From contig JAANAU010000011.1 in the NCBI GenBank assembly GCA_011089965.1, forward strand, positions 1 through 64,000: a stretch of 64,000 nucleotides of DNA, written 5' to 3'. This stretch comes from Magnetococcales bacterium. GTDB lineage: Bacteria > Pseudomonadota > Magnetococcia > Magnetococcales > Magnetaquicoccaceae. The notes beneath the pieces are model-generated. The model was not told the DNA's origin, ran no database searches, and saw only the letters and a program-made list of their open reading frames with translations. This document shows, piece by piece, positions 22,149 to 46,375 of this stretch; positions within the stretch are counted from its first letter, which is position 1, and every line of letters begins with the position of its first letter. Both the position numbers and the translations under genes were made by a program.

Positions 22149-22172
22149 GATTCGACTCTCTTGGCAAAAGTG

Positions 22173-25938: not shown

Positions 25939-25972
25939 CAAGGATGCTGGTCAGGTAACGGGGAGAGGGAAC

Positions 25973-26614: not shown

Positions 26615-26934
26615 GATCCCGGGTGTCCGGGTGGATGGTGGCCGTCATGGTGGCGATGGTGCCGACAGCGGTCATGGCCGGGGATCCGTTTGTCGGCAAG
26701 GAGCTGTACAGGCAGCAGTGCGGCCAGTGTCATGGTCTGGATGGTCGTCCGGGTCTGCCCCAGACCCCGGACTTCACCCGCAAGAGCGATCCGCGCAACG
26801 GGCTGTTGCGTACCGATACGGTGCTGGTGAACCGGATTCGTCAGGGCGGGGTGAGTTGTCCTTCCTTTCGTGGAGTTTTGGATGATCTCCAGATCCTCGA
26901 TGTGATTTCCTATTTGAGAAGCATGAGACGATGA
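26611..26934 (+). CDS. monoheme c-type cytochrome with Cys at the usual Met-ligand position
   Basis: Periplasmic cytochrome c of 107 residues. A signal peptide is cleaved near VMA, and the heme site CGQCH is at 37-41. The fold is class I (ELYRQQCGQCHG at the N-terminus, YLRSMRR at the end). The place where class I cytochromes normally show a Met-Pro ligand reads GGVSCPSF (Cys83), so axial ligation may be His/Cys or incomplete. Overlapping ATGA junctions on both sides tie it to the Sel1 and propeller genes. Confidence 0.8.
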   Translation: MRSRVSGWMVAVMVAMVPTAVMAGDPFVGKELYRQQCGQCHGLDGRPGLPQTPDFTRKSDPRNGLLRTDTVLVNRIRQGGVSCPSFRGVLDDLQILDVISYLRSMRR

Positions 26935-28127: not shown

Positions 28128-28131
28128 AGTC

Positions 28132-29472
28132 GTGCAAGGCTTCGGACGGAATATGCTGCTGGCAGCAGGTGTGTTGGCGCTGGTGGCGGGTGCGTACATG
28201 GTGGGGCGTCAACAGGGCGGAACAGTGAATCCCAATTCCGGGAATCCGGCCACGGTCGCAGCGGTTGAGGTGGCTTCCCCTCCGAAGAGTCCGGCACCTG
28301 CGCCCGCGACTGCGCCGGCGGAGACCAAATCCCCGGCCCCCTTGCGGAGTGGAGGGTTGTCGGAACCTCTGGCCGGACGGGATGCCCGGCAACTGTTGCA
28401 AACCGCCCCATCGGCTGCGGCTGGGGGTGCCAAGGGGCGTTTCACCCATTTCCGCGTGGGCAATCGCAACGTCAAGGCCATGCACGCCAGCGGCAATCAG
28501 GTGTGGGTCGGGACATCGAGCGGCGTGATCCGTTACGAGGTGGACAAGGACGATTACAAGCTGTTCGATGTCCGCAACGGCAGTCTGGTGGCCAACGGCG
28601 TGTTTCATGTCGGAAAGTTGGGGGAGAAGATCAGTGTCGGAACCTATGGGGGGGGGCTGTCCCTGTATGATCCGGCCACGGAGAAATGGGAGACCTTCAA
28701 CATTCCCCAGGGATTGGCCGATGCCTTTGTCTATGGGGTGTTGCAGGCCAAAAACGGGGATGTCTGGATTGCCACCTGGTCCGGGGCCAATCGGATCGTG
28801 GGCGGGAATCTCAAGGATCGGGCCAGTTGGCGCACCTATACGGTGGAGAATACCCAGGGCGGTCTGCCCAATGACTGGGTGTACGGCCTGGCCGAAGGGT
28901 TGAACGGGGACATCTGGATGGCCACCGAAGGGGGAGTGGCCCTGTTCCGGGAGGAGAAGTGGCAGCACTGGACTCACAAGGATGGGGTCGGCGCCCCGTA
29001 CGACAAGGTGAAGTCGCAAAACGAGTTTGACAGCGATCCGGGTCAGGTGTCGAGCCATCATGCCCGGCAGAAGCAGGAGCAGGGGTTGAGCGAGGTGACC
29101 ACGGCGTACAATCCCAATTATATCATCTCATTGGCTGTCGATGCCAAGGGCGGGGTGTGGTGTGGCACCTGGGGTGCGGGTCTGTCCCACTTTGATGGCA
29201 AGAGCTGGATCAATCAGACCAGGGATGATGGCCTGCCGGCCAATCATGTCTTCATGTTGCATCTGGATGATCGGCAGAGGTTGTGGGTGGGAACCAGCGG
29301 CGGATTGGCCTTGCGGGATGATGCGGGCAAGTTCAGCGTGAAGACCACTGCCGACGGATTGTTTTCCAACAATGTCTTTTCCATGGCCTTCTCTGCGGAT
29401 GGTTCCCAATGGGTGGGGAGTTATGGGGGGGTGGCCCGGATCTTTCCGGAAAAGACGGACCAAAAGCCGTAA
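28132..29472 (+). CDS. membrane-anchored beta-propeller paralogue
   Basis: Protein of 446 residues. GTG 28132 is the start, with AAAGGAG seven bases upstream. A single N-terminal helix (about 6-24) anchors it. An Ala/Pro-rich linker (50-90) leads to the same propeller type as the preceding lipoprotein (VWVGTSSGVIRYEV, DVWIATWSGANRI, GVWCGTWGAGL, RLWVGTSGGL). A longer blade insertion with many Gln/Ser residues lies at about 295-325. The pair may bridge inner and outer membranes, one by helix and one by lipid; this is inference from topology. Confidence 0.72.
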   Translation: MQGFGRNMLLAAGVLALVAGAYMVGRQQGGTVNPNSGNPATVAAVEVASPPKSPAPAPATAPAETKSPAPLRSGGLSEPLAGRDARQLLQTAPSAAAGGAKGRFTHFRVGNRNVKAMHASGNQVWVGTSSGVIRYEVDKDDYKLFDVRNGSLVANGVFHVGKLGEKISVGTYGGGLSLYDPATEKWETFNIPQGLADAFVYGVLQAKNGDVWIATWSGANRIVGGNLKDRASWRTYTVENTQGGLPNDWVYGLAEGLNGDIWMATEGGVALFREEKWQHWTHKDGVGAPYDKVKSQNEFDSDPGQVSSHHARQKQEQGLSEVTTAYNPNYIISLAVDAKGGVWCGTWGAGLSHFDGKSWINQTRDDGLPANHVFMLHLDDRQRLWVGTSGGLALRDDAGKFSVKTTADGLFSNNVFSMAFSADGSQWVGSYGGVARIFPEKTDQKP

Positions 29473-29807: not shown

Positions 29808-30638
29808 ATGAACGCCACTTTCACATCGGGATTTTCGTTTTCCAAACTGTCCATGGCCTTCGGGGTTGCCGCGCTTGGACTGCTGTTGGGCACCAGTGTT
29901 GCGGATGCCGGCATCAAGGGGAGCAAGCATGACCTGGGAGCCAGCGGTACCTCCCAGCATGGGACTACCGGCAACACCAACACGACGGAAGTGTGCGTCT
30001 TCTGCCATACCCCGCACGGTGCCAATACGGGTGCGGCAGCTCCGTTGTGGAACAAGAGTTTGCCCGCTGCCGGCAGCTATACCCGCTACTCGTCGTTGAA
30101 CTCCAGCACCATCGATGGTGCAGAGCTGGCCGTGGGTTCGGTCTCTCTGGCCTGTCTCTCCTGTCATGACGGCAGCCAGGCCATGGACGTGATGATCAAC
30201 AAGCCGGGTAGCGGTGGTTACACGGCAGGCGGCGCGGCCTTCCAGGCGAACGCTGCCATGACCGGCACCCCGCTTCCGAATCTGGGAGTGGACATCTCCA
30301 ACGATCACCCGATCAGCATTCAGTACGGTGGTGGCGGTTGGGTCGGTGGGGACACGGATGGTACGGCAGCCGCAGGTGATCTGGCGGATGGCAGCTTCAA
30401 GGCCGGTGTGAAGGATACCATCAATACCAATCCGGTGTGGTGGATCGATACCGGAAACGCTGGCGTGCGTGACAAGACCGATATCATCCTCTACACCCGT
30501 ACGAATGGCGCGACCAAAGAACCCTTCGTGGAGTGCGCAAGCTGCCATGACCCGCACAACGCGACAGCCCAACCTGTCTCCTTCATGCGGATCAGCAACG
30601 CGGCCAGTGCAGTCTGTCTGGCCTGTCACGACAAATAA
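29808..30638 (+). CDS. tetraheme c-type cytochrome, doubled-CxxCH type
   Basis: Periplasmic or secreted cytochrome of 276 residues with a signal peptide (cleavage near VADA) and four CxxCH sites: CVFCH, CLSCH, CASCH, CLACH. The opening block KHDLG...EVCVFCHTPHGA...PLWNKSL, the middle block LACLSCHDG and the DHPI segment are also present in the 11-heme cytochrome at 39296-41806. It is therefore a small paralogue of that protein's N-terminal part. ATG 29808 was chosen because the signal peptide begins soon after; no strong ribosome binding site is visible. Likely a secreted or periplasmic relay in the conduit. Confidence 0.82.
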   Translation: MNATFTSGFSFSKLSMAFGVAALGLLLGTSVADAGIKGSKHDLGASGTSQHGTTGNTNTTEVCVFCHTPHGANTGAAAPLWNKSLPAAGSYTRYSSLNSSTIDGAELAVGSVSLACLSCHDGSQAMDVMINKPGSGGYTAGGAAFQANAAMTGTPLPNLGVDISNDHPISIQYGGGGWVGGDTDGTAAAGDLADGSFKAGVKDTINTNPVWWIDTGNAGVRDKTDIILYTRTNGATKEPFVECASCHDPHNATAQPVSFMRISNAASAVCLACHDK

Positions 30639-30659
30639 GGCGGATGGTCTCTCCCCAAA

Positions 30660-30691
30660 GACGGCTCTTCAAGGATGAGAGCCGTTTTTTG
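30660..30691 (+). terminator. intrinsic terminator after tetraheme cytochrome gene
   Basis: ACGGCTCT and AGAGCCGT form an 8-bp stem with a 9-base loop followed by six T's. It lies 22 bases after the stop codon at 30638. Confidence 0.75.
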
Positions 30692-30718
30692 GGTGAACAG
30701 AGCATACTGGATGTACCC

Positions 30719-30764
30719 ATGAGTCACGATGACGCGGAGGGAATCTGGCGGTATCGTGACTCAT
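30719..30764. repeat. 12-bp perfect inverted repeat
   Basis: ATGAGTCACGAT (30719-30730) and ATCGTGACTCAT (30753-30764) are exact inverted copies with a 22-base spacer. They lie between the terminator of the tetraheme gene and the PpiC gene, and TTGATTTTT follows. It may be a second terminator, an operator for the downstream operon or an RNA hairpin. No promoter was identified in the rest of the 216-base gap. Confidence 0.6.
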
Positions 30765-30854
30765 TGATTTTTGGGGCGACCCTGTTCAATCTGTTGTCGG
30801 GGCCGGTATGCGGCTGAACATCATCGTTTCGTGTTGGATCCGGGTGTGGCAAAA

Positions 30855-31916
30855 ATGAGAAACCGTTGCTTTATCCTGTTGTTGGTGGCATCTGTCATGG
30901 GTCTGGCATCCCCTCTTGGGGCAGCGGAACCGGTTGGGAGTGGGGCGGCAGGTCAGGGAGAGCGACCCCCTTTTGCCACGGTGGACGGGGTGGCGATCCC
31001 GGCAGAACAGTTCATCAAGGCGGTCCAGGAAGGGATGCGTCAGAAGTATTACCACGGCAAGATTCCCGATCCTGAGATGGCCAAATTCCAGCGGGAGATG
31101 GGCAATGCCCTGGTGGATCGCATCCTGTTCGTGAAAGAGGCCAAAAAACAGGGCCTCCAACCCGACCAGTCCCAGATCCAGCAGCGCATCACCGAGATGG
31201 ACCAACGCTATGGCAATTCGCCCCGCTATCAGAACAATCGCGAGGCCATGCTCGGACCCATGGTGGAAGAGCTGGCGGATCGCAGTCTGGTGAATCAGCT
31301 CAAAGAGAAGATCACCAAGGTCAAAGAGCCATCCGCGGCGGAATTGACGGCCTATTACAAAGCCAATCCGGATACGTTTACCGAACCCGAAGATCTGGAT
31401 GTCTCATTGATCCTGTTGAAGGTGGCACCGAACGCGGGTGTGGAAGCGTGGGATCAGGCCAAGGGCGAGGCTGAACAGATCTTCGGAAAGCTCAAGGGTG
31501 GGGCCGATTTTGCCGAAATGGCCCGTATCCACTCTGGCGATCCGTCGGCGGCCAAAGGGGGACGGATGGACTATCTGCACTCCGGCATGCTGGCCCAGGA
31601 GGCGGAAAAGGCCCTCTCCCTCATCAAACCGGGTGAGATCACGCCTGTGATCCTGGTGCTGGAGGGGTATGCCATCTTCCGTCTCGACAAGCGCACCCCG
31701 CCTCGCAAATTGACCTTCGAGGAGGCGCGCGACCGGGCGAAGAAATTGTATGTGCGAGATGCCTCTGACACGCAATGGAAACAGTTCCGCAAGAAATTGT
31801 GGGACAAGGCCTCGGTCAAGATCAACGAGTCCTACTATCTGCCTCTGACCGAATCCGGAAAAGAGGCAAGCGGAACTCCGCATCCTCATGCGCTGGGAGG
31901 TGGCAAAGCCAAGTGA
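30855..31916 (+). CDS. PpiC/SurA-type periplasmic peptidyl-prolyl isomerase
   Basis: Periplasmic foldase of 353 residues. It has a signal peptide (cleavage near LGAA), a SurA-like N-terminal helical region (AVQEGMRQKYYHG, ALVDRILFVKEAKKQG) and a PpiC rotamase domain at about 190-290 (VSLILLKVAP; ADFAEMARIHSGDPSAAKGG; GEITPVI). It lies 10 bases before the beta-barrel gene. The likely role is to chaperone that barrel or the many cytochromes of the cluster to the outer membrane. The start ATG has the first good signal sequence. Confidence 0.85.
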   Translation: MRNRCFILLLVASVMGLASPLGAAEPVGSGAAGQGERPPFATVDGVAIPAEQFIKAVQEGMRQKYYHGKIPDPEMAKFQREMGNALVDRILFVKEAKKQGLQPDQSQIQQRITEMDQRYGNSPRYQNNREAMLGPMVEELADRSLVNQLKEKITKVKEPSAAELTAYYKANPDTFTEPEDLDVSLILLKVAPNAGVEAWDQAKGEAEQIFGKLKGGADFAEMARIHSGDPSAAKGGRMDYLHSGMLAQEAEKALSLIKPGEITPVILVLEGYAIFRLDKRTPPRKLTFEEARDRAKKLYVRDASDTQWKQFRKKLWDKASVKINESYYLPLTESGKEASGTPHPHALGGGKAK

Positions 31917-31926
31917 ATGATGCCCG

Positions 31927-34083
31927 GTGAAGAATACGACTCGACCCGTCTGCACGCTTTTGATGGTTCCTTTGCTGCTCACCCCGGCACCTGTGTCGGT
32001 CATGGCACAGGAAGAAGAGTCCTCTTTGCCGTTTTGGGATCCGGCACGATATGGCGTGCATGGACGTTATACCCCCTGGACCTTGTCCGGAGATGTGGGT
32101 TTGCGTCTGTCGTATAACCTGGAAGAGCACAAAAGTACGGCTCTGCGGCAGAGACAGCATCAATGGTATACCCAGTTGCGGGCTGGCAAGGGGGCGGAAG
32201 GGTATGTCATCGAGCCGTATATTGCCCAGTGGCGCGGCGACATCCTGATGGGATTGACCCTCAGCCAGACCATTTCAACCAATCGGAACACGCAGGATGA
32301 TCAGAACGGCGGCAGCAGCAGCACCAGTGAGGAGCGCAAGGTGAATCTGTCGGCTCAATCCCTTCAGGGCAATGCGGATGTACGCCTGTTTCCGCAGAGT
32401 GGTTTTCCGTTTCAGTTCTATTTCAACCGTGCCAATTCCGGGAATTCCGGGGGCAACAGCGAGGCGAGCAGCCGTTTGTCCCAGAGGTTCGGGATCACGC
32501 AACAGTATCGGGACCGGGAGGCGGAGTTGAGCGTGCGGTTGCAGGCCGAGCGCCGCCTGGATGACACCGGGGACAAGGCCAACTCCGGTCTGCTGCCCAT
32601 GGTGCTGCCCAGCATCCGGGATATCGAAGACTCCAAGACCATGGATACGGCCACCCTGCGGATTGACAAGCGTCTGGATGATCACAGCCTGGAACTGATG
32701 GCCCGTCTGGCCCAACAGGATGGCAGAACCAGAATCGGGAAAGGGTTGACCTGGGAACGCAGCGTGGTGTTGTCCCACAATGTCGCCCCCATGGAAGAGT
32801 TGTCGATCAGCAATCAGGTCAATGTCACCCGCTCCCGGGATTTTCAGCGCAATATGGACGAAGAGGCCCGGGGGATTTATCGTGAGACCGATGCGTTTCA
32901 ACTCTCTCAAATGCGTCAGTTCACCTCCAACGCCTTCTGGCGCACCAGCGAATCCCCTCTGCTGCTCAATGCCACCTTCCGGGTCTATCAGGAGGATCTC
33001 AATAACGCCATCCTCAACAACGCCACCCAACTGTCGCCCAGCCTGGTGACCGCCCTGGGGGGGGCGCGTCCGGGCAGCGTACCAACGGGCACGACCGATC
33101 CTTCCGGCCTGCCGTTCACCCCCGCGACCACGGGTGCCACCACCACGACCGGGAGCAGCGGCAACCGCCGTGCGTTGTCGGTCAATGCCCGTCTGGGTGC
33201 CGGTTACCGGTTTGACGAGCACCACAATGTGAATGGTGCCCTGGTGGCCATTCAGGAGACCCGGGAGACCGTCACCGAGGAGGAGACGATTGAATCGGTG
33301 GTGAACAGTTTCGGGCAGTCGGCTGCCTATCAGTACGACTCCGGGCCGATCCCTCTGGAGCCTTACAACTACTCATGGTTTTCCGGCACCACGGTGGCCA
33401 ATACCATCAGTTCGGATCTGGGGACGCAACCGGAATTGGGTGAACGGATCGGACATGGTGTGGAGCGCATCTTTCCTCTGGAGGCGCTGGAGGCCGAAAT
33501 CCGGCTGTCGGTGGACGAATCTGCCGGAATGCGCTACAAAGCGGATCCGGAGATGGATCTGACCCACACCGTTGGACTGGGGTACGAGAGTTCTGCGGAA
33601 GGGGAGCGTGCGCTGATCGATCTGCGCCTGACCGACTCCCATACCCTGACCGATCCTAAGGATGAGACCCAACTGGTCAACCTGCAACTGATGCGCAACG
33701 CCTCTTCCGAAGGGGGGGCAGACGGTTGGTCCGGGAGTCTGGCGTTCAACTGGATGCGTCGGATGGATCAGAGCGGTCTGTTGACCATCTCCGAATCGGC
33801 CAGCGGCAGTTTGAATTATACCATACCCCAGTTCATGGATGTCTCCCGGCTTCGATATGACATGATCACCACCATCAGCGGGGACTCCTGGGCCATGGGC
33901 ATGCTCGGCCCTTCGGAGCAGGAGATCAGTTGGCGCAATCTGTTGAGTTACAATATCGGCAAGATCCATCTGCGGATGGGTGGCGAGTTGAAATATCTCC
34001 ATGACAAAATGGGAGAGAAGAGTTATCAGGCTTTGTTGACGTTCGATGTGGTTCGCAATTTCTACAGGAGATTTGAACAATGA
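31927..34083 (+). CDS. outer-membrane beta-barrel protein (porin of a putative porin-cytochrome conduit)
   Basis: Protein of 718 residues starting at GTG 31927, with a signal peptide ending near VMAQ. From residue 45 onward it shows alternating hydrophobic/polar strands separated by acidic or Gly/Ser/Asn loops, for example LSGDVGLRLSYNL, MGLTLSQTIS, ATLRIDKRLDD, VNGALVAIQET and MGGELKYLHDK. No plug, OmpA or TonB box is seen. The size suits a barrel of 20 or more strands, comparable to MtrB-type or Geobacter Omb-type conduits, but no specific family motif was recognised. The last residue is Gln, not the usual Phe. Foldase gene upstream, cytochrome genes coupled downstream (4-base overlap). Cytochrome sheath function is inferred from context. 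Confidence 0.7.
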   Translation: MKNTTRPVCTLLMVPLLLTPAPVSVMAQEEESSLPFWDPARYGVHGRYTPWTLSGDVGLRLSYNLEEHKSTALRQRQHQWYTQLRAGKGAEGYVIEPYIAQWRGDILMGLTLSQTISTNRNTQDDQNGGSSSTSEERKVNLSAQSLQGNADVRLFPQSGFPFQFYFNRANSGNSGGNSEASSRLSQRFGITQQYRDREAELSVRLQAERRLDDTGDKANSGLLPMVLPSIRDIEDSKTMDTATLRIDKRLDDHSLELMARLAQQDGRTRIGKGLTWERSVVLSHNVAPMEELSISNQVNVTRSRDFQRNMDEEARGIYRETDAFQLSQMRQFTSNAFWRTSESPLLLNATFRVYQEDLNNAILNNATQLSPSLVTALGGARPGSVPTGTTDPSGLPFTPATTGATTTTGSSGNRRALSVNARLGAGYRFDEHHNVNGALVAIQETRETVTEEETIESVVNSFGQSAAYQYDSGPIPLEPYNYSWFSGTTVANTISSDLGTQPELGERIGHGVERIFPLEALEAEIRLSVDESAGMRYKADPEMDLTHTVGLGYESSAEGERALIDLRLTDSHTLTDPKDETQLVNLQLMRNASSEGGADGWSGSLAFNWMRRMDQSGLLTISESASGSLNYTIPQFMDVSRLRYDMITTISGDSWAMGMLGPSEQEISWRNLLSYNIGKIHLRMGGELKYLHDKMGEKSYQALLTFDVVRNFYRRFEQ

Positions 34084-34496
34084 CAAGAAAGTTTCTGGGG
34101 GGCGTGCCGGCATCCAGGAGTCCCATGCGACTGTTGCGTCTGGTATTTCTGGTGTTTCTGGCGGTGATCGTGTGGGGCAGTGAGGCGATGGCCGAATACG
34201 GCGATATCGTCATCAACAACTATTCGGACAAGGCTGGCATGCGTCCGGCGATCTTCCCGCACTGGTTTCATCGTATCCGGTTTCGTTGCAAGGTATGTCA
34301 TGCGGATTTGGGCTTCAAGTTCAAGGCGGGCGGCAATGACATCAACATGCTCAAGATCATCGATGGTCAGTTCTGCGGCGGATGTCACAATGGTGAGGTG
34401 GCCTGGTCGGTGGAGAACTGTGACATCTGTCACTCCGGCAAGCCCAACACCCCGACCCAGGTCCATGGCAACACCATCCAGAAACTGGTGAAATGA
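34080..34496 (+). CDS. triheme c-type cytochrome (family A)
   Basis: Periplasmic cytochrome of 138 residues with a long basic signal sequence cleaved near AMA and three hemes: CKVCH, CGGCH, CDICH. Extra His residues (PHWFHRIRF) could be axial ligands. It is nearly colinear with the cytochrome at 37793-38200 (family A'): GMRP-I-PHWFHRIRFRCKVCH, INMLK--DGQ-CG-CHN and VAW. Resembles c7-type triheme domains of metal-reducing bacteria. Coupled by ATGA to the beta-barrel gene, so it is a likely periplasmic donor or plug for the barrel. Confidence 0.85.
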   Translation: MTRKFLGGVPASRSPMRLLRLVFLVFLAVIVWGSEAMAEYGDIVINNYSDKAGMRPAIFPHWFHRIRFRCKVCHADLGFKFKAGGNDINMLKIIDGQFCGGCHNGEVAWSVENCDICHSGKPNTPTQVHGNTIQKLVK

Positions 34497-34519
34497 CGCT
34501 TTTGAAAGGAGTGTGGTCC

Positions 34520-35239
34520 ATGAAACGTCTCTCCCTGATCGCCCTGGCCCTGCTGGTTGCCGTGTTGGGTGCGGGCATCTTTGTGGATGCCTCTGCGCAG
34601 CAGCAGGCACCAGCCAAGGCTGCGGATGCCAAACCGGCGGACAAACCGGCGGACAAACCGGCAGCCAAACCCGCCGATGCCAAACCTGCCGACCCCGCAC
34701 CAGCCAAACCTGCGGCAGCGGCCAATCCGTTCAACCGTTTGATGATTCCCAAGGCAGATCGCAATCCTCCGCCCATCAAGGACGGCATTCACGATCCGGA
34801 ATCCCCGGGAACCCCCATGTTGCAGCCCCCCCTGGATGCGTTCGGCGGCATGCCCAAGAGCAATGCGGGCAACAACATCAACTGGGTGCAGGCCATCAAG
34901 GACAAGACCATCAATCCCCGCTATGATCGCCTGAATCCCAAAGAGGAGCCGATGATCCTGGATCTGGACATCGTGCGCGAGGTGAAAGGGTTCATGCCGG
35001 ATGTGGTCTATCCCCATGACCGCCATACCGAATGGCTGGACTGCTCCAACTGCCATCCGGACATCTTCATTCCGCAAAAGGGTCAGAACACCATCTCCAT
35101 GGCCCAGATCCTGATGGGTCAGAAGTGCGGGGTGTGTCATGGCAAGGTGGCGTTCCCGGTTTCGGAGTGTCGTCTGTGCCATTCCAAGAAGAAGGATCAG
35201 CCCAAGGCGGCCTCGGTGTCGGCACCGGCGGCCAAGTGA
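34520..35239 (+). CDS. triheme c-type cytochrome (family B) with Lys/Pro/Ala repeat linker
   Basis: Protein of 239 residues. ATG 34520 follows AAAGGAG at eight bases, so it is preferred to the ATG at 34493. A signal sequence (cleavage near DASA) is followed by an Ala/Lys/Pro/Asp repeat linker (ADKPADKPAAKPADAKP, about 30-70). The C-terminal domain carries CSNCH, CGVCH and CRLCH within the family-B frame TEWLDCSNCH...KCGVCHGKVAF. The linker could span peptidoglycan or tether it to a partner. Paralogues: 21609-22148 and 37216-37824. Confidence 0.85.
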   Translation: MKRLSLIALALLVAVLGAGIFVDASAQQQAPAKAADAKPADKPADKPAAKPADAKPADPAPAKPAAAANPFNRLMIPKADRNPPPIKDGIHDPESPGTPMLQPPLDAFGGMPKSNAGNNINWVQAIKDKTINPRYDRLNPKEEPMILDLDIVREVKGFMPDVVYPHDRHTEWLDCSNCHPDIFIPQKGQNTISMAQILMGQKCGVCHGKVAFPVSECRLCHSKKKDQPKAASVSAPAAK

Positions 35240-35270
35240 CCGGCACATGTTTTCTCAAGGAGTGGTGACT

Positions 35271-36152
35271 GTGGTGCGAGGCGCGTTGATCATCGGTCTG
35301 GGAGTGGGTGGCTGGATGTTGGCCTCTGGTGAGGCCCTGGCCAACCACCCCCTGTTTGAACAGAAGTCGCGACTGCTGGATCGCTTCCTGGTCCAGTCCG
35401 CCACCAGCGAGCAGGTGGGGCTGAGAGGGGATGCCAAACTCAAAGAGATCCTCGATCAGACCCGCCGTTTGCGGGAAGAGGCGCGACGCCTGCACGATCA
35501 GGGGGAGATCGAGAAGGCCACGGCCCAGGTGGATCTGGCCATCAAGGAGGCGGTCAAACTCTCCCAACTCACCTCGGGTCCGGCCAAGCAGGCGTGGAAT
35601 CAGCGCATGCGTTTCGAGGGGTTGCAGGCCGGAGTGATCACGTTTGAAGAGGCGTATGTGCGCAATCTTCAGACCCTCTCTGCCGAAGGGGGTGGTGCGG
35701 GTGCCAAGCCGCCCCCGCAGCCGGTCAAACCGGAAGAGATCCGGCAGGTTCTGGCCAAGGCAGCGGCCTTGGCCGGCAAGGAGGAGTATGCGCAGGCCAA
35801 CGAACTGTTGGCCGACATGCAGCAGAAGCTGACATCGGCTTTGAAGGCCATGCTCGACTCCAAGACCCTGGTTTATCAGCTCAAGTTCGAGACTCCCCAG
35901 CATGAATACCGGTATGAACTGGACCGGATGCTGAGTTTCGAGGCATTGTTGAACATGGCCTTGTCCAAGGCTGCAATCGATGAGAATGGACGGCGTATCA
36001 TCCGGGAGCGGCAGGAGAAGAGCCGCGCATTGCATCGCGAGGCGGAAAAGCAGGCGGCTGCCGGAGACTTCAAGGAGGCGATTCGCACCATGGAGAACGC
36101 CAATGAACAGTTAAGCCAGGCCATGATGATGGCAGGCATCGTCTTCCCCTGA
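35271..36152 (+). CDS. exported helical protein of unknown function (H)
   Basis: Periplasmic protein of 293 residues. GTG 35271 is preferred because AAGGAG lies eight bases upstream; an ATG at 35247 is also in frame. A signal peptide is cleaved near ALA. The mature protein is almost entirely helical (LREEARRLHDQGEIEKATAQ, AAALAGKEEYAQANELL, AEKQAAAGDFKEAIRTMENA), with a central block VYQLKFETPQHEYRYELDRM. There is no heme or metal motif. The next gene encodes a paralogue. Family not recognised; TPR-like bundles in a cytochrome operon suggest a scaffold. Confidence 0.7.
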   Translation: MVRGALIIGLGVGGWMLASGEALANHPLFEQKSRLLDRFLVQSATSEQVGLRGDAKLKEILDQTRRLREEARRLHDQGEIEKATAQVDLAIKEAVKLSQLTSGPAKQAWNQRMRFEGLQAGVITFEEAYVRNLQTLSAEGGGAGAKPPPQPVKPEEIRQVLAKAAALAGKEEYAQANELLADMQQKLTSALKAMLDSKTLVYQLKFETPQHEYRYELDRMLSFEALLNMALSKAAIDENGRRIIRERQEKSRALHREAEKQAAAGDFKEAIRTMENANEQLSQAMMMAGIVFP

Positions 36153-36166
36153 TCAAGAGGTGCGAG

Positions 36167-37105
36167 ATGACCAGATTGAGTCGGATGTTGATGGCAGCGT
36201 TCGTGGTGACGGGCGCGTTCGGGATCTCCTGGGAGTCGATGGCGGCCCCGGAAGAGGGGGCACCACCCGCAGGTTCATCGGCCATCAATAAAAGTACCGA
36301 TCCCAAGGTTTCCCGATGGGGTACGGACCGGGAGCAGGTGAAGCGGCGTTGGGATACGGTCAACACCCTGGTCGAGGTTTCCTCCGGGGCCAAGAAGGTG
36401 GCATCCAGTGGTCGCCCGGAAGCAATGGCTTTGCGTGAGCAGGCCCGCTCCTTGCGCGATGAGGCCAAGGGATTGCTTGAGCGGGGGGAGTTGCAACCCG
36501 CTTCGGACAAGTTGAGCCAGGCCACCCAGAAGATGTTTGCCGCCATCAAGGAGGCTGATGCGGGCGAGTCCAAACGGGGCAAGCAGGAGCAGGATTTCAA
36601 CCGCCGTCTGGAGAGCGTGCGGGTGTTGACCGATGCCCTGGACCGGATCGGCAAGGAGAAATCCTCCTCCAAGGCCGCCGAGTCGAGCAAACAGGTCAAG
36701 AGTCTGATGAGTCAGGCCCAAGGCATGCAGGCCAAAGGGGATGCGGCCTGGGCCAAAACCACCCTGGACAAGGCCTATGTGACGGCCAAGACCGGGATCG
36801 AGCTGTTGCGGCGCGGGGATACGCTGGTCCGCACCCTCAAGTTCAACTCCAAGGAAGAGGAGTATCACTATGAGGTGGATCGCAACGACACCCATCAGAT
36901 GCTGATCGGCATGCTGCTCAAGGATAACGACAAGGGGTCGGATCCGCGCATCAAGGAGTTTGTCTCCAAGGCGGCGGAGCTGCGGCGTCAGGCCGATCAG
37001 ATGGGGCGCAATGGCCAGTATGAAGAGGCGATCCGGGTGCTGGAGCAGGCGACCACCGAGTTGATCCGGGCCATTCGCAGCGCCGGGATTTTCATTCCGG
37101 GTTGA
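36167..37105 (+). CDS. exported helical protein of unknown function (H', paralogue of the preceding gene)
   Basis: Protein of 312 residues with a signal peptide cleaved near SMAA. It shares with the preceding protein the order of helical segments, the central VRTLKFNSKEEEYHYEVDRN block and the closing REAG-type helix ending in SAGIFIPG (GIVFP in the neighbour). A GAGGTGCGAG leader precedes the ATG. The pair lies at the centre of the mirrored cytochrome arrangement. Unknown function; possibly a dimeric scaffold in the periplasm. Confidence 0.7.
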   Translation: MTRLSRMLMAAFVVTGAFGISWESMAAPEEGAPPAGSSAINKSTDPKVSRWGTDREQVKRRWDTVNTLVEVSSGAKKVASSGRPEAMALREQARSLRDEAKGLLERGELQPASDKLSQATQKMFAAIKEADAGESKRGKQEQDFNRRLESVRVLTDALDRIGKEKSSSKAAESSKQVKSLMSQAQGMQAKGDAAWAKTTLDKAYVTAKTGIELLRRGDTLVRTLKFNSKEEEYHYEVDRNDTHQMLIGMLLKDNDKGSDPRIKEFVSKAAELRRQADQMGRNGQYEEAIRVLEQATTELIRAIRSAGIFIPG

Positions 37106-37115
37106 TGATGTATGC

Positions 37116-37177
37116 AACCATCAGGGGGGTATCCCCCTGGTGGGGCTTGGGGCGAGAGCCACCCAAGAAAAATCAAA
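37116..37177 (-). repeat. degenerate fragment of the dispersed hairpin repeat (inverted)
   Basis: After the stop at 37105 the sequence ATGCAACCATCAGGGGGGTA and its continuation matches the reverse complement of the right end of the dispersed repeat, with a deletion. A second hairpin (CTTGGG and CCCAAG, 37146-37167) replaces the usual CCAGGGG stem. It occupies the 110-base gap before the next cytochrome gene. Confidence 0.45.
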
Positions 37178-37215
37178 AAAAGACATTCCAAACGGGTTGC
37201 GGTTGAAGAGGCAAG

Positions 37216-37824
37216 ATGGTCAATACGAATCGCGCCTGGTGGCGCCTGCTGTTGTTGTTTTGTGCCGTCATGCTGGCCGCTGCGGCGGTGGAAGCTGGGG
37301 ACAAGAGGGCCTGGAAGCCCCTCGAAAAGGATTTTTTGCACGATCCTCAAGGCACCTCGATTCAGGATTTGCAAAATCCGGGTGAGGCCATGTCGAGCCT
37401 GCCGGCAGATGGTGCAGGCAATCTGGTGGACTGGGTGCGCGCTTTGCGGGAGGGCTATATTCAACCGCGTACCAACGTTTTTCCGGAGACCAAGGTCAAT
37501 GTGTTGGATCTGGACCTGATCTATGGCAACACCGGGGATCAGCCGTTTGTGCGCTTTCCCCACAAGCCCCACACCGAGTGGCTGGATTGCATCAACTGTC
37601 ATGACGAGATCTTCAAGACCCAGTTCAACGGGTCGGGCATCAAGATGTCCCTGATTCTCGAAGGCAAGTTCTGCGGTCAATGCCATGGGGCCGTGGCCTT
37701 TCCCTTGACCGAGTGCAAACGGTGCCACAGCGTGGCCCCGGAGAGTTTCAAGGGCAAATTCGGTGCGCAACAACCTTTGCCGGTGACACAGAATGCCGCA
37801 CCTGCCAACAACAAAAAGAAATAA
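37216..37824 (+). CDS. triheme c-type cytochrome (family B')
   Basis: Periplasmic cytochrome of 202 residues with a signal peptide ending near VEA and hemes CINCH, CGQCH, CKRCH. The N-terminal half (KPLEKDFLHDP, NLVDWVRALREGYIQPRTNV) matches the stand-alone family-B protein at 21609-22148 more closely than the protein at 34520-35239. The heme half keeps HTEWLDCINCH and GQCHGAVAFPLTECKRCH. A Gln/Pro/Asn/Lys tail ends in NNKKK. The downstream gene starts inside its 3' end (32-base overlap). Confidence 0.85.
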   Translation: MVNTNRAWWRLLLLFCAVMLAAAAVEAGDKRAWKPLEKDFLHDPQGTSIQDLQNPGEAMSSLPADGAGNLVDWVRALREGYIQPRTNVFPETKVNVLDLDLIYGNTGDQPFVRFPHKPHTEWLDCINCHDEIFKTQFNGSGIKMSLILEGKFCGQCHGAVAFPLTECKRCHSVAPESFKGKFGAQQPLPVTQNAAPANNKKK

Positions 37825-38200
37825 TTCGCGCGTGTGGCGGTTGGGGTTGGGGCTGCTTGTGGCGTGTGCCGTGGTGGAGCCGGTGTGGGCCGAGTATGCG
37901 GATGTGGTGCTCAACCGGCTTTCTGAAGCCAATGGCATGCGTCCGGTGATCTATCCCCACTGGTTTCATCGCATCCGTTTTCGTTGCAAGGTGTGTCACT
38001 CCGAACTCGGGTTCAAGATGCGGGTTGGCAGCAATGAGATCAACATGCTGAAACTGATGGATGGCCAGTATTGTGGCCGCTGTCACAACAATGATGTGGC
38101 CTGGGGTTTGGACAACTGTCACCGTTGCCATTCCGGTCGCAAGGGGATGGAAACTGGCATCCGGGGAGGACACAAGGCAGGTGGGCCGGGTTACTGGTAA
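37793..38200 (+). CDS. triheme c-type cytochrome (family A')
   Basis: Cytochrome of 135 residues with a signal peptide cleaved near VWA and hemes CKVCH, CGRCH, CHRCH. It aligns along its length with the family-A protein at 34080-34496, including IYPHWFHRIRFRCKVCH, INMLKLMDGQYCG and VAWGLDNCHRCHSG. The ATG at 37793 overlaps the preceding gene; the start is supported by the basic leader. It closes the mirrored A-B-H-H'-B'-A' order. The 3' end overlaps the NHL lipoprotein gene by 20 bases. Confidence 0.85.
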   Translation: MPHLPTTKRNNSRVWRLGLGLLVACAVVEPVWAEYADVVLNRLSEANGMRPVIYPHWFHRIRFRCKVCHSELGFKMRVGSNEINMLKLMDGQYCGRCHNNDVAWGLDNCHRCHSGRKGMETGIRGGHKAGGPGYW

Positions 38201-39299
38201 AGGTTTTGACCGGGTGGTTTTTGGCCCGGGGAGCGGTGTGCTGCTGGTGCTGTTGGCCTGGCTGGCCGGGTGTGCGCCGATCCAGCACGAGATGATCCTG
38301 GGCACGGAACGTCTCAAACCTGAACAACGACCGGTCTGGCCCTCGTTGCCGGAGACCCCCCGCTATGAGTATCTGGGTCAACTGCTTGGGGTGCGCAATT
38401 TCCGCATCTCCGGGGATGAGAGCCTCCGCACGACCCGCAGTGCCTTGTATTGGCTGGCGGGCATCGATGACGAAACCGGATTCGAGCCGGAACGCAATCT
38501 CGATCTGCAACGACCGGTCTCGGGATGTGTGGACCGGGAGGGGCGCATCCTGGTCAGCGACATGGGCCATGCGGCGCTGTTCGTCTTCAATCCCCGTACC
38601 GGGGAGTTTGACATCTGGCGTCAGGCCATGGCTGGACAGCCGTTCCTGGCCCCGGTGGGCGTGACCGAAGGGGGACGCGGGGAATACTTTGTGGCCGACC
38701 CGGAGTTGCGCCTGGTGGTCAGGCTGGACGCTGCGGGTCAACCTGCGGGGGTGATCGGACGGGGTGAGCTGGAACGCCCGACCGGTGTGGCCTGGAATCC
38801 GGAACAGCGGCTGCTGTATGTGGCAGACAGTGCATTGGATCAGGTCAAGGTGTTTGACCGGGATGGGGTGTTGCGTCACACCATCGGCAAGCCTGGGGAT
38901 CAGGATGGGGAGTTCAACACCCCGACCCACGTGGCGTATGCCCGCAACCAGCTGGTGGTGGCCGATACCCTCAATGCCCGCATCCAGATTTTTGATGCCG
39001 AAGGCCGTTTTGTGCGCACCCTGGGCAAACGGGGCAACCTGATCGGGGATCTGGCCCGCCCCAAAGGGGTGGCGGTGGATGGGGAGGGCAATCTGTATGT
39101 GGTGGAATCGTTCCATGATCATCTGTTGATTTTCAACCGGGAGGGCCAGTTCCTCATGCCCATCGGTGGTACGGGTCAGGGGTTGGGAGAGTTTTATCTG
39201 CCCAATGGGGTGTGGGTCGATCTGGCAGGACGGGTGTTTGTGGCCGACATGTTCAACGGGCGGGTGATCATTCTCCAGTTTCTGGGAGGTGACGGATGA
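38181..39299 (+). CDS. NHL-repeat lipoprotein
   Basis: Lipoprotein of 372 residues. GTG 38181 (GGAGGA ten bases upstream) gives a leader ending in LLAWLAGC. Six NHL blades follow (ILVSDMGHAALFVFNPRTG, LLYVADSALDQVKVFDRDG, LVVADTLNARIQIFDAEGRF, LYVVESFHDHLLIFNREGQF, VFVADMFNGRVIILQF). NHL propellers bind partners on their top face and often neighbour multiheme cytochromes. Paralogous in layout to the lipoprotein at 47682-48929. Coupled by ATGA to the 11-heme cytochrome, its probable partner at the outer membrane. Confidence 0.8.
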   Translation: MGRVTGKGFDRVVFGPGSGVLLVLLAWLAGCAPIQHEMILGTERLKPEQRPVWPSLPETPRYEYLGQLLGVRNFRISGDESLRTTRSALYWLAGIDDETGFEPERNLDLQRPVSGCVDREGRILVSDMGHAALFVFNPRTGEFDIWRQAMAGQPFLAPVGVTEGGRGEYFVADPELRLVVRLDAAGQPAGVIGRGELERPTGVAWNPEQRLLYVADSALDQVKVFDRDGVLRHTIGKPGDQDGEFNTPTHVAYARNQLVVADTLNARIQIFDAEGRFVRTLGKRGNLIGDLARPKGVAVDGEGNLYVVESFHDHLLIFNREGQFLMPIGGTGQGLGEFYLPNGVWVDLAGRVFVADMFNGRVIILQFLGGDG

Positions 39300-41806
39300 C
39301 GGGTCGCGCGGGTCGCATGCTGGTTCTGGTGGTGCTGTTGGTCATGGGGTTGGTGTCGGCAGCTTTGGCAGCGCGCACGTCGGATGTGCGTCGCACCAAA
39401 CACAATCTCTCCAATACCGATTATTCGGGTGGGCCGACCCGCACGGTCAAGGCGAGCAGCGAAAACCAGGTGTGCGTGTTTTGTCACACCCCCCATGGTG
39501 CCACCCAGAGTGCCGGTGTGCCCTCGCCACTGTGGAACCGTCAGTTGTCCACCTCCAGTTACACCACTTACGAATCGACCTCCATCGATGCCGACATCTC
39601 CCAGTTGCGTCAGGGACCGGGGGGAACCTCCAAACTCTGTCTCTCCTGTCACGACGGGACATTGGCCATTGGTTCGGTGAATGTCCTGAACGGCCAGCAA
39701 TCGGGTTCGATCACCATGACCGGTACGGCCAGTGGCAAGATGCCGGCAGGAGAGGGGAGCGATACCGGTTTCACCCGCAATCTGGGCACCAACCTCTCCA
39801 ACGACCATCCGATCTCTTTCACCTTTGATACCAATCTCGCCACAGCGGACGGTGAACTGCGTCATCCCCCCTATACCAGTGGCGGCACCCTGATCACCGG
39901 GCAGCGTCAGGCTGGCGTCACCCCCAAGCCGGTGCTGCCCCTGGATGACCAGAAGGTGCAGTGCGCCTCCTGTCACGACCCCCACATCCGGGATGCCTCC
40001 GAAACCACCAGCATCAAGTTCCTGCGTTTGAACCGGTTCCAGAAGGCCAATCCCAGCGGTCAGAATTTCAGCTCCACTGATGACATCATCTGTCTGGGTT
40101 GTCACAACAAGGGGGTGCATGCCTGGGCCACCTCGGCCCACGCCAACTCCACCGATGCTTCGGAAACCTATAAATCCGGTACGGGCAGCGCGGCGGAAAA
40201 ACGGGAGTTTCCCAGCAATGTCACGGTCTGGGAGGCGGCCTGTCTCAATTGTCATGACACCCACACGGTTCCCGGCGCGCGTCGGCTGTTGCGCGAGGGC
40301 ACGGACAGCGCCCTCTCCCCCAAACGCACCGGCAATCCGGCATTGGAAGAGACCTGCTACCAGTGTCACTCTTCCAGTACGGAGACCATTCTCAACAGTA
40401 CCGGCAACAGTGCCCCGGATATCAAGACCGATTTCACCACCACGGGCAACAAGCACATGCCCATCAAATCCTCGGAGCAGCCTGCGGGTCAGGAGGTTCA
40501 CAACATCGGTGCCCGGCTCTCCTCCAATCTCCTGACCAACTGGTCCGGAGTTCCGACCCATGCCGGCGCCCATTTTGTGGAAGATCCGTTGCTTCTTGGC
40601 AAAGGCAATCTGACCAACCGGCATGTGGAGTGTACCGACTGCCACAATCCCCACCGGGTGATGAAAAATTCCAAATATGACGGTTCCGGGGTCTCCACCC
40701 AGGCCACCCATACCCACAGCAGCACCACCCAGCACAGCAATGAGGCCTCCGGGGTGTTGCGCGGCATCTCCGGGGTGGAACCGGTTTATGTGGGGGAGAG
40801 TTTTCTCGATCTGCCTTCCTCGTTCAAACTGCTGTGCGGCGATCCCTCCCAATCCACCGACTGCTCCAGCGACGGGCCGGTCACCAAGGAGTATCAGGTC
40901 TGCCTGAAATGCCACTCCAACTACGCCTATAACGACAGCGGCGGTTACAATGATGTGGGGCGTCCGGCCATCACCGGCACCAACGGATTGTCCTTGGGCA
41001 ATTTCAGCGTCGGGGATCGCTATACCAACCAGGCCATGGAGTTTCAGGCCCCGGACAATGCCCAGGGAGAAAAGGGGGTGGATGGCGCCCCGGAGCCGAC
41101 CTTGGTCAACCATCGCTCCTGGCACCCGGTGATGAAGGCCACCGGACGCACCCTGGCCGAACGGGGCGGAGCCAATGCCAGCATCTGGCTCTCCCCCTGG
41201 AACGGCTCTTCCGGCAGCTATATCGGCAATCAGACCATGTATTGCAGCGATTGCCATGGGTCAGCCACGGCCAATGGCACCTCAGTTCCGGATACCGGCA
41301 AGCCGTGGGGTCCGCATGGCTCCAGCAAGGATTTCATTCTCAAGGGGGATTGGGACAATACCACCGGCAGTGGGCAACAGGATGATCTGTGCTTCAAGTG
41401 TCACAGTTATACGATCTATGCCACCAAGAACAGCACCCAGAGCGGTTTCTGCTGCGGCAAGGACACCAATCTCCATGGCTATCATGCCGACAAGATCGGC
41501 AGCATGCGGTGCGGCTGGTGTCATGTGGCCGTTCCTCATGGATGGAAGAACAAGGCGTTTCTGGTCAATCTCAACGACGTGGGACCAGAGGCCAACAAGA
41601 GCGCCGGTACGCATCTGCGCAACAATACCACCACCCCGGTGAACATCGCCCCCTATTATCGTCGGGCAGTGCTCAAGGTGGTCAACTGGAAAAGGAGCGG
41701 TGCCTGGGTGGAGAATGATTGCGGTTCGACCGGAGCGCCAGGCAATGGCCAGACAGGTCTCGACTGGATGAAAAACAACAGCGAGAATTGCGCCGGTGGT
41801 CCGTGA
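39296..41806 (+). CDS. undecaheme c-type cytochrome, probable secreted or outer-surface electron carrier
   Basis: Protein of 836 residues with a signal peptide cleaved near ALA and eleven CxxCH sites: CVFCH, CLSCH, CASCH, CLGCH, CLNCH, CYQCH, CTDCH, CLKCH, CSDCH, CFKCH and CGWCH. The first third parallels the tetraheme protein at 29808 (KHNLS...VCVFCHTPHGA, LCLSCHDG, CASCHDPH). Heme density is low, about one per 76 residues, as in large extracellular cytochromes with beta-rich spacers. It lacks the MtrC/OmcA Greek-key signature as far as I can see, and no lipobox is present. The terminal acceptor or donor side is unknown. It lies between the NHL lipoprotein and the cytochrome c maturation genes. 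Confidence 0.85.
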   Translation: MTGRAGRMLVLVVLLVMGLVSAALAARTSDVRRTKHNLSNTDYSGGPTRTVKASSENQVCVFCHTPHGATQSAGVPSPLWNRQLSTSSYTTYESTSIDADISQLRQGPGGTSKLCLSCHDGTLAIGSVNVLNGQQSGSITMTGTASGKMPAGEGSDTGFTRNLGTNLSNDHPISFTFDTNLATADGELRHPPYTSGGTLITGQRQAGVTPKPVLPLDDQKVQCASCHDPHIRDASETTSIKFLRLNRFQKANPSGQNFSSTDDIICLGCHNKGVHAWATSAHANSTDASETYKSGTGSAAEKREFPSNVTVWEAACLNCHDTHTVPGARRLLREGTDSALSPKRTGNPALEETCYQCHSSSTETILNSTGNSAPDIKTDFTTTGNKHMPIKSSEQPAGQEVHNIGARLSSNLLTNWSGVPTHAGAHFVEDPLLLGKGNLTNRHVECTDCHNPHRVMKNSKYDGSGVSTQATHTHSSTTQHSNEASGVLRGISGVEPVYVGESFLDLPSSFKLLCGDPSQSTDCSSDGPVTKEYQVCLKCHSNYAYNDSGGYNDVGRPAITGTNGLSLGNFSVGDRYTNQAMEFQAPDNAQGEKGVDGAPEPTLVNHRSWHPVMKATGRTLAERGGANASIWLSPWNGSSGSYIGNQTMYCSDCHGSATANGTSVPDTGKPWGPHGSSKDFILKGDWDNTTGSGQQDDLCFKCHSYTIYATKNSTQSGFCCGKDTNLHGYHADKIGSMRCGWCHVAVPHGWKNKAFLVNLNDVGPEANKSAGTHLRNNTTTPVNIAPYYRRAVLKVVNWKRSGAWVENDCGSTGAPGNGQTGLDWMKNNSENCAGGP

Positions 41807-41830
41807 CCGTGGCTGGGGTGTGTGGCTGAG

Positions 41831-42808
41831 ATGAGGTTTGTCGAACGTCTGGCCTCCCTGAAATGGTCGGTGCTGGTGCTGGCATGGCTGGTTCTGGTCT
41901 TGCCTCTGGTGCCAAGGGCGTTGATCTCTCCTCTGGTGGTATTGGGCATCGGTGGCGGGCTGTTTCTGGTCAACCTGCTGGCATTTTTGTGGTGTTCGTC
42001 CTTTTTCCGGACCCGTCCCGGGTTGCTGGTGTTTCATGCAGCTTTGGGGTTGTTTCTGATTCTGGCCGGTGTGGGGCGACTCACCTGGATGGAGGGCAAC
42101 GTCGAGGTGGCGGTTGGTGAGTGGTTCGAGGGGGTGCCGATGACCATGACCCAGGGACCGCTTCATGACGGAGGCATCGGGCAGATCCGTTTTCTCAACG
42201 AAGGGTTCACGATTACCTATGACGTCGGGCTGAAGCGCGGACCCACCCGCAACCGTGTGGCCTGGCGCGATGGCCAGGGGGGCATGGTGCGCGGGGTGAT
42301 CGGGGATGATTACCCTTTGGTGTTGCGGCACTATCGTTTCTATACCACCTCCAATAAAGGATTTGCCCCGATTCTCACCTGGCAGCCGGAGGGTGGTCAG
42401 CCGGTGCGCGCCGCCTTTCATTTGCCAAGCTATCCTTTGTTTGCGGACCAGACCAACACCTGGAGCTTTCCAAATCAGGGACCGACCATCACGGCCACCC
42501 TGGTCCTGAAGGAGCCGGTGCTGGATGAATCCCGTCCCGGGCAGTTTCGTTTGCCGGAGCAGCCCACCCTCAAGCTGGCCGTGCGTGACGGCCCGGAGGC
42601 GCAGATGCAACCCGGTGCGCGCCTGGCATTGCCCAACGGGGGGGTGGTGTTCGAGGGGTTGACCAGCTGGATGGGGTATCGCATCCACTACGACCGCACC
42701 CGCTCCTGGCTGTTGGCCACCCTGCTGGTGGGCGTTGCGGGTCTGGGTTGGCACTATCGCACGCGCTTTCAGGCGCGGGATTGGGATCAGATGGAGAGGG
42801 GTGGATGA
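41831..42808 (+). CDS. ResB/CcsB-like cytochrome c maturation protein
   Basis: Membrane protein of 325 residues, shorter than usual ResB. Three N-terminal helices (about 13-30, 33-55, 62-82) precede a long periplasmic beta-rich domain (VEVAVGEWFEGVPM; LVLRHYRFYTTSN), and one helix closes it (LLATLLVGVAGLGWHY). The overall layout fits the CcsB half of System II, which with CcsA delivers and ligates heme to apocytochromes. ATG 41831 chosen; GTG 41822 is in frame too. ATGA coupling to the CcsA gene. Confidence 0.75.
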   Translation: MRFVERLASLKWSVLVLAWLVLVLPLVPRALISPLVVLGIGGGLFLVNLLAFLWCSSFFRTRPGLLVFHAALGLFLILAGVGRLTWMEGNVEVAVGEWFEGVPMTMTQGPLHDGGIGQIRFLNEGFTITYDVGLKRGPTRNRVAWRDGQGGMVRGVIGDDYPLVLRHYRFYTTSNKGFAPILTWQPEGGQPVRAAFHLPSYPLFADQTNTWSFPNQGPTITATLVLKEPVLDESRPGQFRLPEQPTLKLAVRDGPEAQMQPGARLALPNGGVVFEGLTSWMGYRIHYDRTRSWLLATLLVGVAGLGWHYRTRFQARDWDQMERGG

Positions 42809-43620
42809 CGCTCGCGCATGAACAGTTCGTGTTGTGGACCGCTCTGGCCCTCTATCTGGCCACAGGTCTGCTGGCCATCCTTGGCATGATCTTCGGGCGC
42901 TTCCTGCCCCGCCTGGTGGGCTGGGGGTTGGCCTTGGGACTGATCGTGCATGCCGGATCGTTGGCTGTGCGCTGGGTGCGGCTCGGTCATGGGCCGTTTG
43001 TGAATCTGTACGAAATCCTTTCGTCCAATATTTTCAGTTTCACTTTGGTCTTTTGGCTGTTTTACTGGCGCCAGTCGCGTCTGCGTCCGAGTGTGGTGGT
43101 GGTGATTCCAGTAATTTTTGTGCTGATGGGGTGGTTGTTGTGGGTCAATCCGGCGGACTCGGCCTTTCCGCCCACCTATGACACGGCGTGGCTGTATGTG
43201 CATATCGGACTGGGCAAAGTGGCTTTGGGTCTGCTGTTGACCGGTGCGGGTGTTGCCGGGGTGATCGTGACCCGGTGGCTGTTCGGGGCGCAGCGGCTGG
43301 CTCTGCTGCCCGGGGATGGGGCGCTGGACGAGTTCGGCTATCGCTGCGTGGCCGCTGCCTTTGTGTTCCACACCCTGATGCTGGTGGCAGGAGCGATCTG
43401 GGCACAGGATGCCTGGGGACGGTTCTGGGCCTGGGATCCGTTGGAGACCTGGTCGTTGCATACCTGGCTGTTGATGGCGCTTTTTCTCCATCTGCGTCCC
43501 TTGTTTCATCCACCGCCCCTGGTGGGGGCCGTGGCCATCTGGATCCTCTTTGTGGCCGCCTTTCTGGTCTTTTTCGGCGTGCCGTTTCTCTCGACCGCAG
43601 CGCATCAGGGCATTGTCTGA
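42805..43620 (+). CDS. ccsA: CcsA/CcmC-family heme-handling protein
   Basis: Polytopic membrane protein of 271 residues with about eight helices. The periplasmic tryptophan-rich WWD-type motif WGRFWAWDPLETWS lies at about 203-216, flanked by conserved His residues (VFHTLML; SLHTWLLM; an earlier HAGSLAVRW). These position heme for ligation to CxxCH motifs. It overlaps the ResB-like gene by four bases. Placement directly after 27 CxxCH sites implies a dedicated maturase for this cluster. Confidence 0.88.
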   Translation: MTLAHEQFVLWTALALYLATGLLAILGMIFGRFLPRLVGWGLALGLIVHAGSLAVRWVRLGHGPFVNLYEILSSNIFSFTLVFWLFYWRQSRLRPSVVVVIPVIFVLMGWLLWVNPADSAFPPTYDTAWLYVHIGLGKVALGLLLTGAGVAGVIVTRWLFGAQRLALLPGDGALDEFGYRCVAAAFVFHTLMLVAGAIWAQDAWGRFWAWDPLETWSLHTWLLMALFLHLRPLFHPPPLVGAVAIWILFVAAFLVFFGVPFLSTAAHQGIV

Positions 43621-45358: not shown

Positions 45359-45403
45359 ATTCCTGATTCTGGGAACGATTTTCCAGGTTTCAGGAAAAAT
45401 CAG
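45359..45403. terminator. imperfect convergent hairpin region between two operons
   Basis: In the 55-base convergent gap, CCTGATT (45362-45368) pairs with AATCAGG and an inner CTGGGAA pairs with TTTTCCAG. It could terminate both converging transcripts, but there is no clear T-run. Low certainty. Confidence 0.3.
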
Positions 45404-46374: not shown

Positions 46375-46375
46375 G

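Follow-up and report, generated by a model that had tools for sequence, protein, structure and literature searches.

A probable Uet electron-transfer operon with OmcE-like cytochromes in a Magnetococcales bacterium

Uet (undecaheme electron transfer), a little-studied set of heme proteins, is a proposed electron-uptake route in cathode- and iron-oxidising bacteria, and its mechanism is a proposal. Its cytochromes were first noted in the cathode organism 'Candidatus Tenderia electrophaga', where three triheme cytochromes (Tel_16515, Tel_16520 and Tel_16530) are encoded around a tetratricopeptide repeat (TPR) protein (Tel_16525), together with an undecaheme cytochrome (Tel_16545), and the trihemes are among its most highly expressed genes (PMC5371394). 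The Tenderiales cluster is named uetABCDEFGHIJ (PMC12575090), the same gene set recurs (PMC13386937), and the products are given as UetA, tetraheme cytochrome; UetB, peptidyl-prolyl isomerase (PPIase); UetC, barrel; UetD, UetE and UetG, trihemes; UetH and UetI, NHL proteins; and UetJ, undecaheme cytochrome (PMC10734462). Here we describe a locus at positions 29808-45344 of a 64,000-nucleotide stretch of DNA from a Magnetococcales bacterium (assembly GCA_011089965.1, contig JAANAU010000011.1, positions 1 to 64,000; hereafter the window). Judged by its gene content and order, the locus is probably a Uet operon with an overall role in electron transfer, and its tetraheme and undecaheme proteins are related to OmcE of Geobacter.

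The genes of the locus all lie on the plus strand. The first encodes a tetraheme cytochrome with a Sec signal peptide in the UetA position (29808-30638). It is followed by a PpiC/SurA-type periplasmic peptidyl-prolyl isomerase in the UetB position (30855-31916; PF13145 E 2.7e-16, PF00639 E 8.5e-15, SurA_N E 8e-9) and by a 718-residue outer-membrane beta barrel, according to its AlphaFold model, in the UetC position (31927-34083). Next come triheme c7 cytochrome A1 in the UetD position (34080-34496; TIGR04257 E 1.9e-16) and triheme c7 cytochrome B1, which has an Ala/Pro/Lys-rich linker, in the UetE position (34520-35239; TIGR04257 E 2.5e-17). Two helical exported proteins follow: protein 1 (35247-36152), an open reading frame (ORF) whose conserved place between the trihemes is the UetF position, and its homologue protein 2 (36167-37105), the profiles of the two matching each other. 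Triheme c7 cytochrome B2 occupies the UetG position (37216-37824; TIGR04257 E 6.4e-16), and triheme c7 cytochrome A2 (37793-38200; PF14522 E 1.9e-13) is a fourth triheme beyond the published UetD, UetE and UetG. An NHL six-bladed-propeller lipoprotein in the UetI position (38190-39299, start approximate; PF17170 E 1.6e-20, PF01436 E 1.5e-16) has a signal segment that ends, as read from the sequence, in the lipobox LAGC, with a likely start near 38190. The undecaheme cytochrome in the UetJ position (39296-41806) is followed by a ResB/CcsB cytochrome c synthesis protein (41822-42808; PF05140 E 1e-8), a CcsA cytochrome c assembly protein (42748-43620, true start probably about 42805; PF01578 E 3.8e-20) and a membrane protein with C-terminal TPR repeats recognised by TPR models (43620-45344), which is conserved after CcsA in other loci. 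The locus thus extends beyond 41806 to the stop of this TPR protein at 45344.

Between 29808 and 41806, the plus strand contains 27 CxxCH-coding words, all of them in frame in six cytochromes (4+3+3+3+3+11) whose N-termini are of the predicted export type; first-order Markov sequences matched to it in composition gave 0.58 on average and never more than 4 (500 sequences). The largest cytochrome of the locus therefore carries 11 hemes. A preliminary description of the window had listed the 27 CxxCH sites, PpiC, the 718-residue barrel, four trihemes, two helical proteins, the NHL lipoprotein and CcsB/CcsA at the same positions, and this inventory holds, as does its proposal of a candidate extracellular electron-transfer (EET) locus. 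Its suggestion of a distinct conduit type, in the sense of an undescribed one, has to be given up, because the same gene set has been published as uetABCDEFGHIJ (PMC12575090, PMC10734462 and PMC13386937). The cluster itself is already known, and the window holds a further member.

The order UetA-UetB-UetC is found both in the window and in Candidatus Tenderia sp. BWSM_60, whose homologues run A-B-C-D-E-(F) on L094 and F-G-NHL-NHL-J on L120. The Uet cluster of BWSM_60 is split over these two contigs, and on L120 two frames (2816-3514 and 3518-3946) make up the NHL gene that precedes UetJ, through either an assembly error or a true split. The window has the undecaheme UetJ as well, and where the published cluster has three trihemes around a TPR or helical protein, it has four, with two helical proteins between them. 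Betaproteobacteria also possess the additional triheme and helical genes. Only the two NHL genes before UetJ are not found as such, a single one standing there and the second at 47451-48926. In the 58 named loci for which 9.9 kb or more of downstream sequence is available, however, two downstream NHL matches occur in 42 and one in 11, and PMC10734462 applies the name Uet even to Gallionella sets whose parts are incomplete. The number of NHL genes is therefore treated here as a matter of variation and not as a defining feature.

The preliminary description had proposed a survey of gene neighbourhoods, and this finds the set conserved together in many genomes. In the same 58 named loci, PpiC is present in 54, the barrel in 55, each of three trihemes in 52-53, NHL in 54, and the 11-heme gene within reach in 45. 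The named genomes had been scanned with an alignment of the tetraheme, which gave at least 574 relatives; the best 80, which were kept, come from Beta-, Gamma- and Alphaproteobacteria, Nitrospirae, Nitrospinota and one Chloroflexota bin. The barrel lies within three genes of the tetraheme in 67 of the 70 loci with enough sequence. The scan succeeded with the tetraheme alignment but found no relatives with the barrel alone as query. The barrel also diverges faster than the cytochromes, with a mean column identity of 35% against 57% for the tetraheme and 62% for the 11-heme protein in slightly different sequence sets.

Closer to the window, 16 of the 41 genomes searched at the level of the order contain the barrel, and the tetraheme is found in the same 16 and in one marginal match (E 8e-4). 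Gene order is kept in the 14 loci of the order that were read, although L017 has no detectable helical protein 1 and some loci run off the end of a contig. Of 299 Pseudomonadota genomes, 20 have the tetraheme, and the barrel was found in these same 20; they are not 20 independent events, since 19 belong to Magnetococcales. In a tree of PpiC, the Magnetococcales form one clade (100/99). In the window's own genus, the locus falls into two separate lineages, a pattern suggestive of exchange or of differential loss inside the order. No plasmid record carries the tetraheme.

The tetraheme protein matches OmcE of Geobacter (7tfs_A) over residues 18-277 (E 8.2e-31) and a putative multiheme cytochrome, 9yuq_N (E 5.5e-32), in phmmer searches of solved structures. 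Histidines 41, 67, 70, 120, 167, 247, 250 and 274 are invariant in all 15 aligned sequences, OmcE and 9yuq included; four of them belong to CxxCH motifs, His 41, 70, 167 and 250 are the others, and no further histidine is invariant. Four hemes that are all bis-histidine-coordinated require eight histidine ligands, so that the ligand set of the tetraheme is complete. In OmcE filaments, which conduct electricity, one heme ligand is supplied by the neighbouring subunit (review PMC12307469), an arrangement with which the number of ligands here is compatible. The undecaheme protein shares this ancestry at its start: residues 12-232 form an OmcE-like tetraheme domain (E 6.4e-24 against 7tfs with the single sequence and 5.3e-27 with the profile), which retains the CxxCH motifs and the partner histidines. 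In an alignment of 13 sequences of the 11-heme protein from Magnetococcales, Aromatoleum and Dechloromonas (50-87% identity), all 13 keep every one of the 11 CxxCH motifs, and 14 more histidines do not vary. The Tenderia homologue is 54% identical over residues 10-600. For the remaining seven-heme part, sequence search found no solved relative. The preliminary description had called for comparison of the barrel and the 11-heme protein with known conduits: this assigns no family to the barrel and gives the 11-heme protein an OmcE-like first domain. The homology of both cytochromes to OmcE, absent from that description, came from sequence search, and with it the nearest solved relative of the system is a filament-forming cytochrome and not a porin-cytochrome subunit. 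No paper linking Uet with OmcE was found in a literature search that did not include the original Uet and OmcE papers, and of the results here the OmcE homology of UetA and of the N-terminal domain of UetJ has the best chance of being new.

A second OmcE-like protein, with five CxxCH sites, is encoded at G000:C20:307314-308654 (L119:7315-8655, minus strand), and an NHL propeller frame (L119:8375-9721) lies just upstream on the same strand. Strong matches to this gene occur only in carriers of the main locus, among the relatives searched. In L035 and L044, both from Chromatiales, a large ORF with 18 CxxCH and partial OmcE-like similarity directly precedes the tetraheme gene, and it is perhaps a longer relative of the surface cytochrome of the system.

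The c7 domain (TIGR04257/PF14522) is found in all four trihemes of the operon, TIGR04257 bearing the name 'nanowire_3heme'. Each of them matches the domains of the dodecaheme c7 cytochrome 3ov0 (E 1.9e-35 for A1, 9.9e-29 for B1, 2.9e-16 for B2 and 2e-31 for A2), and B2 also matches PpcA (E 2.7e-4). We take 3ov0 to be GSU1996, a linear protein of four triheme domains. By this analogy, the four triheme proteins could be the equivalent of a 12-heme periplasmic relay.

The model of the barrel, of fair confidence, has about 28 long strands and no plug domain (AlphaFold, mean pLDDT 79.6, pTM 0.58). None of 15 homologues passes the cut-off for any curated barrel family in Pfam or NCBIfam, and the barrel profile has no sequence match in the PDB. 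Foldseek matches are to generic barrels with TM-scores of at most 0.35, MtrB being the best by TM-score among those listed (0.33/0.35). Ranked by E-value, TonB-dependent receptors come first, as would be expected of a nutrient or siderophore transporter beside which the cytochromes are incidental. Their TM-scores are however about 0.2-0.3, the model has no plug, no TonB-receptor family matches, and the tight linkage of the barrel with the cytochromes extends over several classes and phyla. A transporter, which the preliminary description had named as the finding that would overturn its own view, is thus highly improbable and was rejected.

From these sequences we infer a periplasmic relay, a crossing at the barrel and, outside, an OmcE-like conductor with the 11-heme protein. 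CcsBA would attach heme to the cytochromes in the periplasm, PpiC would escort the barrel or the secreted cytochromes, and electrons would pass through the periplasm on the triheme proteins, which would link the inner membrane with the barrel. Outside the cell, the OmcE-like tetraheme would make up a multiheme surface conductor, possibly a polymer, and the 11-heme protein would either terminate it or touch a mineral, a metal or a partner. The helical and NHL proteins would act as scaffolds. Undecaheme clusters have been tied both to iron-oxidising Tenderiales and to a manganese-reducing Dechloromonas (PMC13264449), so that the direction is not readable from the genes; electrons may flow either way, in uptake from Fe(II), Mn(II) or an electrode or in discharge to Fe(III) or Mn(III/IV).

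Several points weigh against this reading. First, the Uet names reach the genes of the window through papers that cite the original description. Second, homology to OmcE at 38% identity is no proof that the tetraheme polymerises; that it forms true filaments is possible, at somewhat less than an even chance. Third, the AlphaFold model of the 11-heme protein (pLDDT 30) is too poor for interpretation. Fourth, no decaheme able to fill the barrel is encoded, which leaves the crossing of the outer membrane unexplained and makes this step the largest gap.

Two forms of the Uet reading deal with this gap differently. The barrel may export surface cytochromes instead of conducting: with PpiC, it would be mainly a dedicated outer-membrane channel for export or assembly of the OmcE-like and 11-heme proteins, and electrons would enter at the base of the filament. 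The lack of a decaheme plug fits such a channel, and so does the gene order, since at 67 of the 70 loci that could be tested the barrel follows immediately on the tetraheme and PpiC genes; an eight-gene block beside a Geobacter OmcS-type locus has been tied to maturation and secretion of OmcS (PMC12977616). This form is nevertheless tentative and rather doubtful, because the barrel is accompanied by four trihemes, which is what an electron path would need, because in its size and its lack of a plug it resembles MtrB, its best though low match by TM-score among those listed, and because nearby type II secretion-like genes could do the exporting. Alternatively, in an MtrAB-like arrangement, one or more trihemes inside the barrel would connect the periplasm with the 11-heme protein at the surface. 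The tetraheme would then be a surface or soluble relay that never polymerises. General porin-cytochrome logic speaks for this, and Uet is called a porin-cytochrome complex in the literature (PMC10734462). We consider it unlikely, since among solved structures the tetraheme stands closest to a filament subunit, with all eight ligands conserved, and since the nearest solved relatives of the trihemes are soluble c7 cytochromes. We know of no barrel-inserted relative of the trihemes. Extended to Uet clusters in general, the OmcE homology would make them OmcE-type nanowires, with UetA as the filament, UetB and UetC for export and anchoring, the trihemes as a segmented 12-heme wire, and UetJ joined through its OmcE-like domain; the sequences make this conceivable, but we would put it short of an even prospect.

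The genes at 21609-29472 and 45403-48926 are probably accessory to the locus. Downstream, two triheme class-I (cbb3-like) cytochromes on the minus strand (45403-46569 and 46379-47776; PF13442 E 5.9e-30 and 2.1e-45), a probable accessory module, are divergent from the second NHL propeller protein on the plus strand (47451-48926, open-frame boundaries with the true start inside; PF01436 E 4.5e-18); in most other loci, the class-I pair and the NHL gene lie directly upstream of the tetraheme. Upstream, the plus strand encodes a monoheme cytochrome c (26611-26934; PF13442) and two Reg_prop propeller proteins (26931-28127 and 28132-29472; PF07494), a block that recurs upstream of the locus in L013, L014, L015, several Gammaproteobacteria and one Betaproteobacterium. 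A fifth triheme c7 cytochrome, of c7B type (21609-22148, minus strand; TIGR04257 64 bits, PF14522 E 1.1e-9), is transcribed away from genes for a PAS sensor kinase and for an NtrC-like sigma-54 regulator within 21609-25938, which may regulate the locus. Farther away, the minus strand carries genes like those of type II secretion or type IV pili at 4817-17336. They encode a secretin, a T2SSF protein and two T2SSE ATPases, and surface cytochromes could be exported by this route. At 17511-18907, also on the minus strand, an EB_dh-type protein stands beside a cupredoxin as a possible pair of periplasmic electron carriers; EB_dh-type proteins usually bind heme b. A cytochrome c' gene (PF01322) is found at 58860-59309.

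The nearest named record is from a Magnetococcales bacterium (L027), and magnetochrome domains occur in 41 of 41 genomes searched at the order level; a magnetotactic coccus is therefore very probably the host. The system is present in about 40% of the Magnetococcales sampled (16/41), all with magnetosome-type magnetochrome domains, and a limited literature search found no report of EET in Magnetococcales. If the nanowire reading is true, magnetotactic cocci make cytochrome filaments, and magnetite-forming cells are linked to extracellular electron exchange. With OmcE as a relative of both UetA and the beginning of UetJ, there is a concrete structural model that can be tested, and two literatures that have developed apart are brought together.

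With MtrCAB, MtoAB, PioAB and the Omb-Oma-Omc systems of Geobacter, the locus shares a barrel encoded together with multiheme cytochromes. It differs from the first three in sequence and in content: neither the barrel family nor the genome as a whole yields a match to MtrB_PioB, and, in line with the preliminary description, which had seen no MtrA-like decaheme and no recognised MtrC, no OmcA/MtrC family member exceeds the cut-off and the best score for the MtrA/DmsE decaheme family (TIGR03508) is 38.4 bits against a cut-off of 192.2. Membership in MtrAB/PioAB was rejected on the missing barrel family and decaheme. The putative conduits PCC3 and PCC4 of iron oxidisers likewise combine a barrel with multiheme proteins. 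Each includes an inner-membrane protein; the cytochromes of PCC3, both extracellular and periplasmic, are very large (medians of 34 and 21 hemes), and the periplasmic ones of PCC4 have 4, 5 and 10 hemes (PMC5566968); on these published definitions both were rejected, the giant cytochromes of PCC3 contrasting with a maximum of 11 hemes here. Where Geobacter has one 12-heme chain in 3ov0, the operon has four separate triheme proteins. Compared with OmcE (7tfs) and 9yuq, the tetraheme is homologous across its full mature length and keeps the four CxxCH motifs and four distal histidines, but it is about 45 residues longer than OmcE, with insertions, and its polymerisation is a prediction only. The closest likeness is to Uet of Tenderiales and Gallionella, with tetraheme, PPIase, barrel, trihemes, helical or TPR protein, NHL and undecaheme in the same order; to this the window adds a fourth triheme, a second helical protein and attached CcsBA and TPR genes, and it has one NHL gene inside the operon against two published, the second lying about 6 kb downstream.

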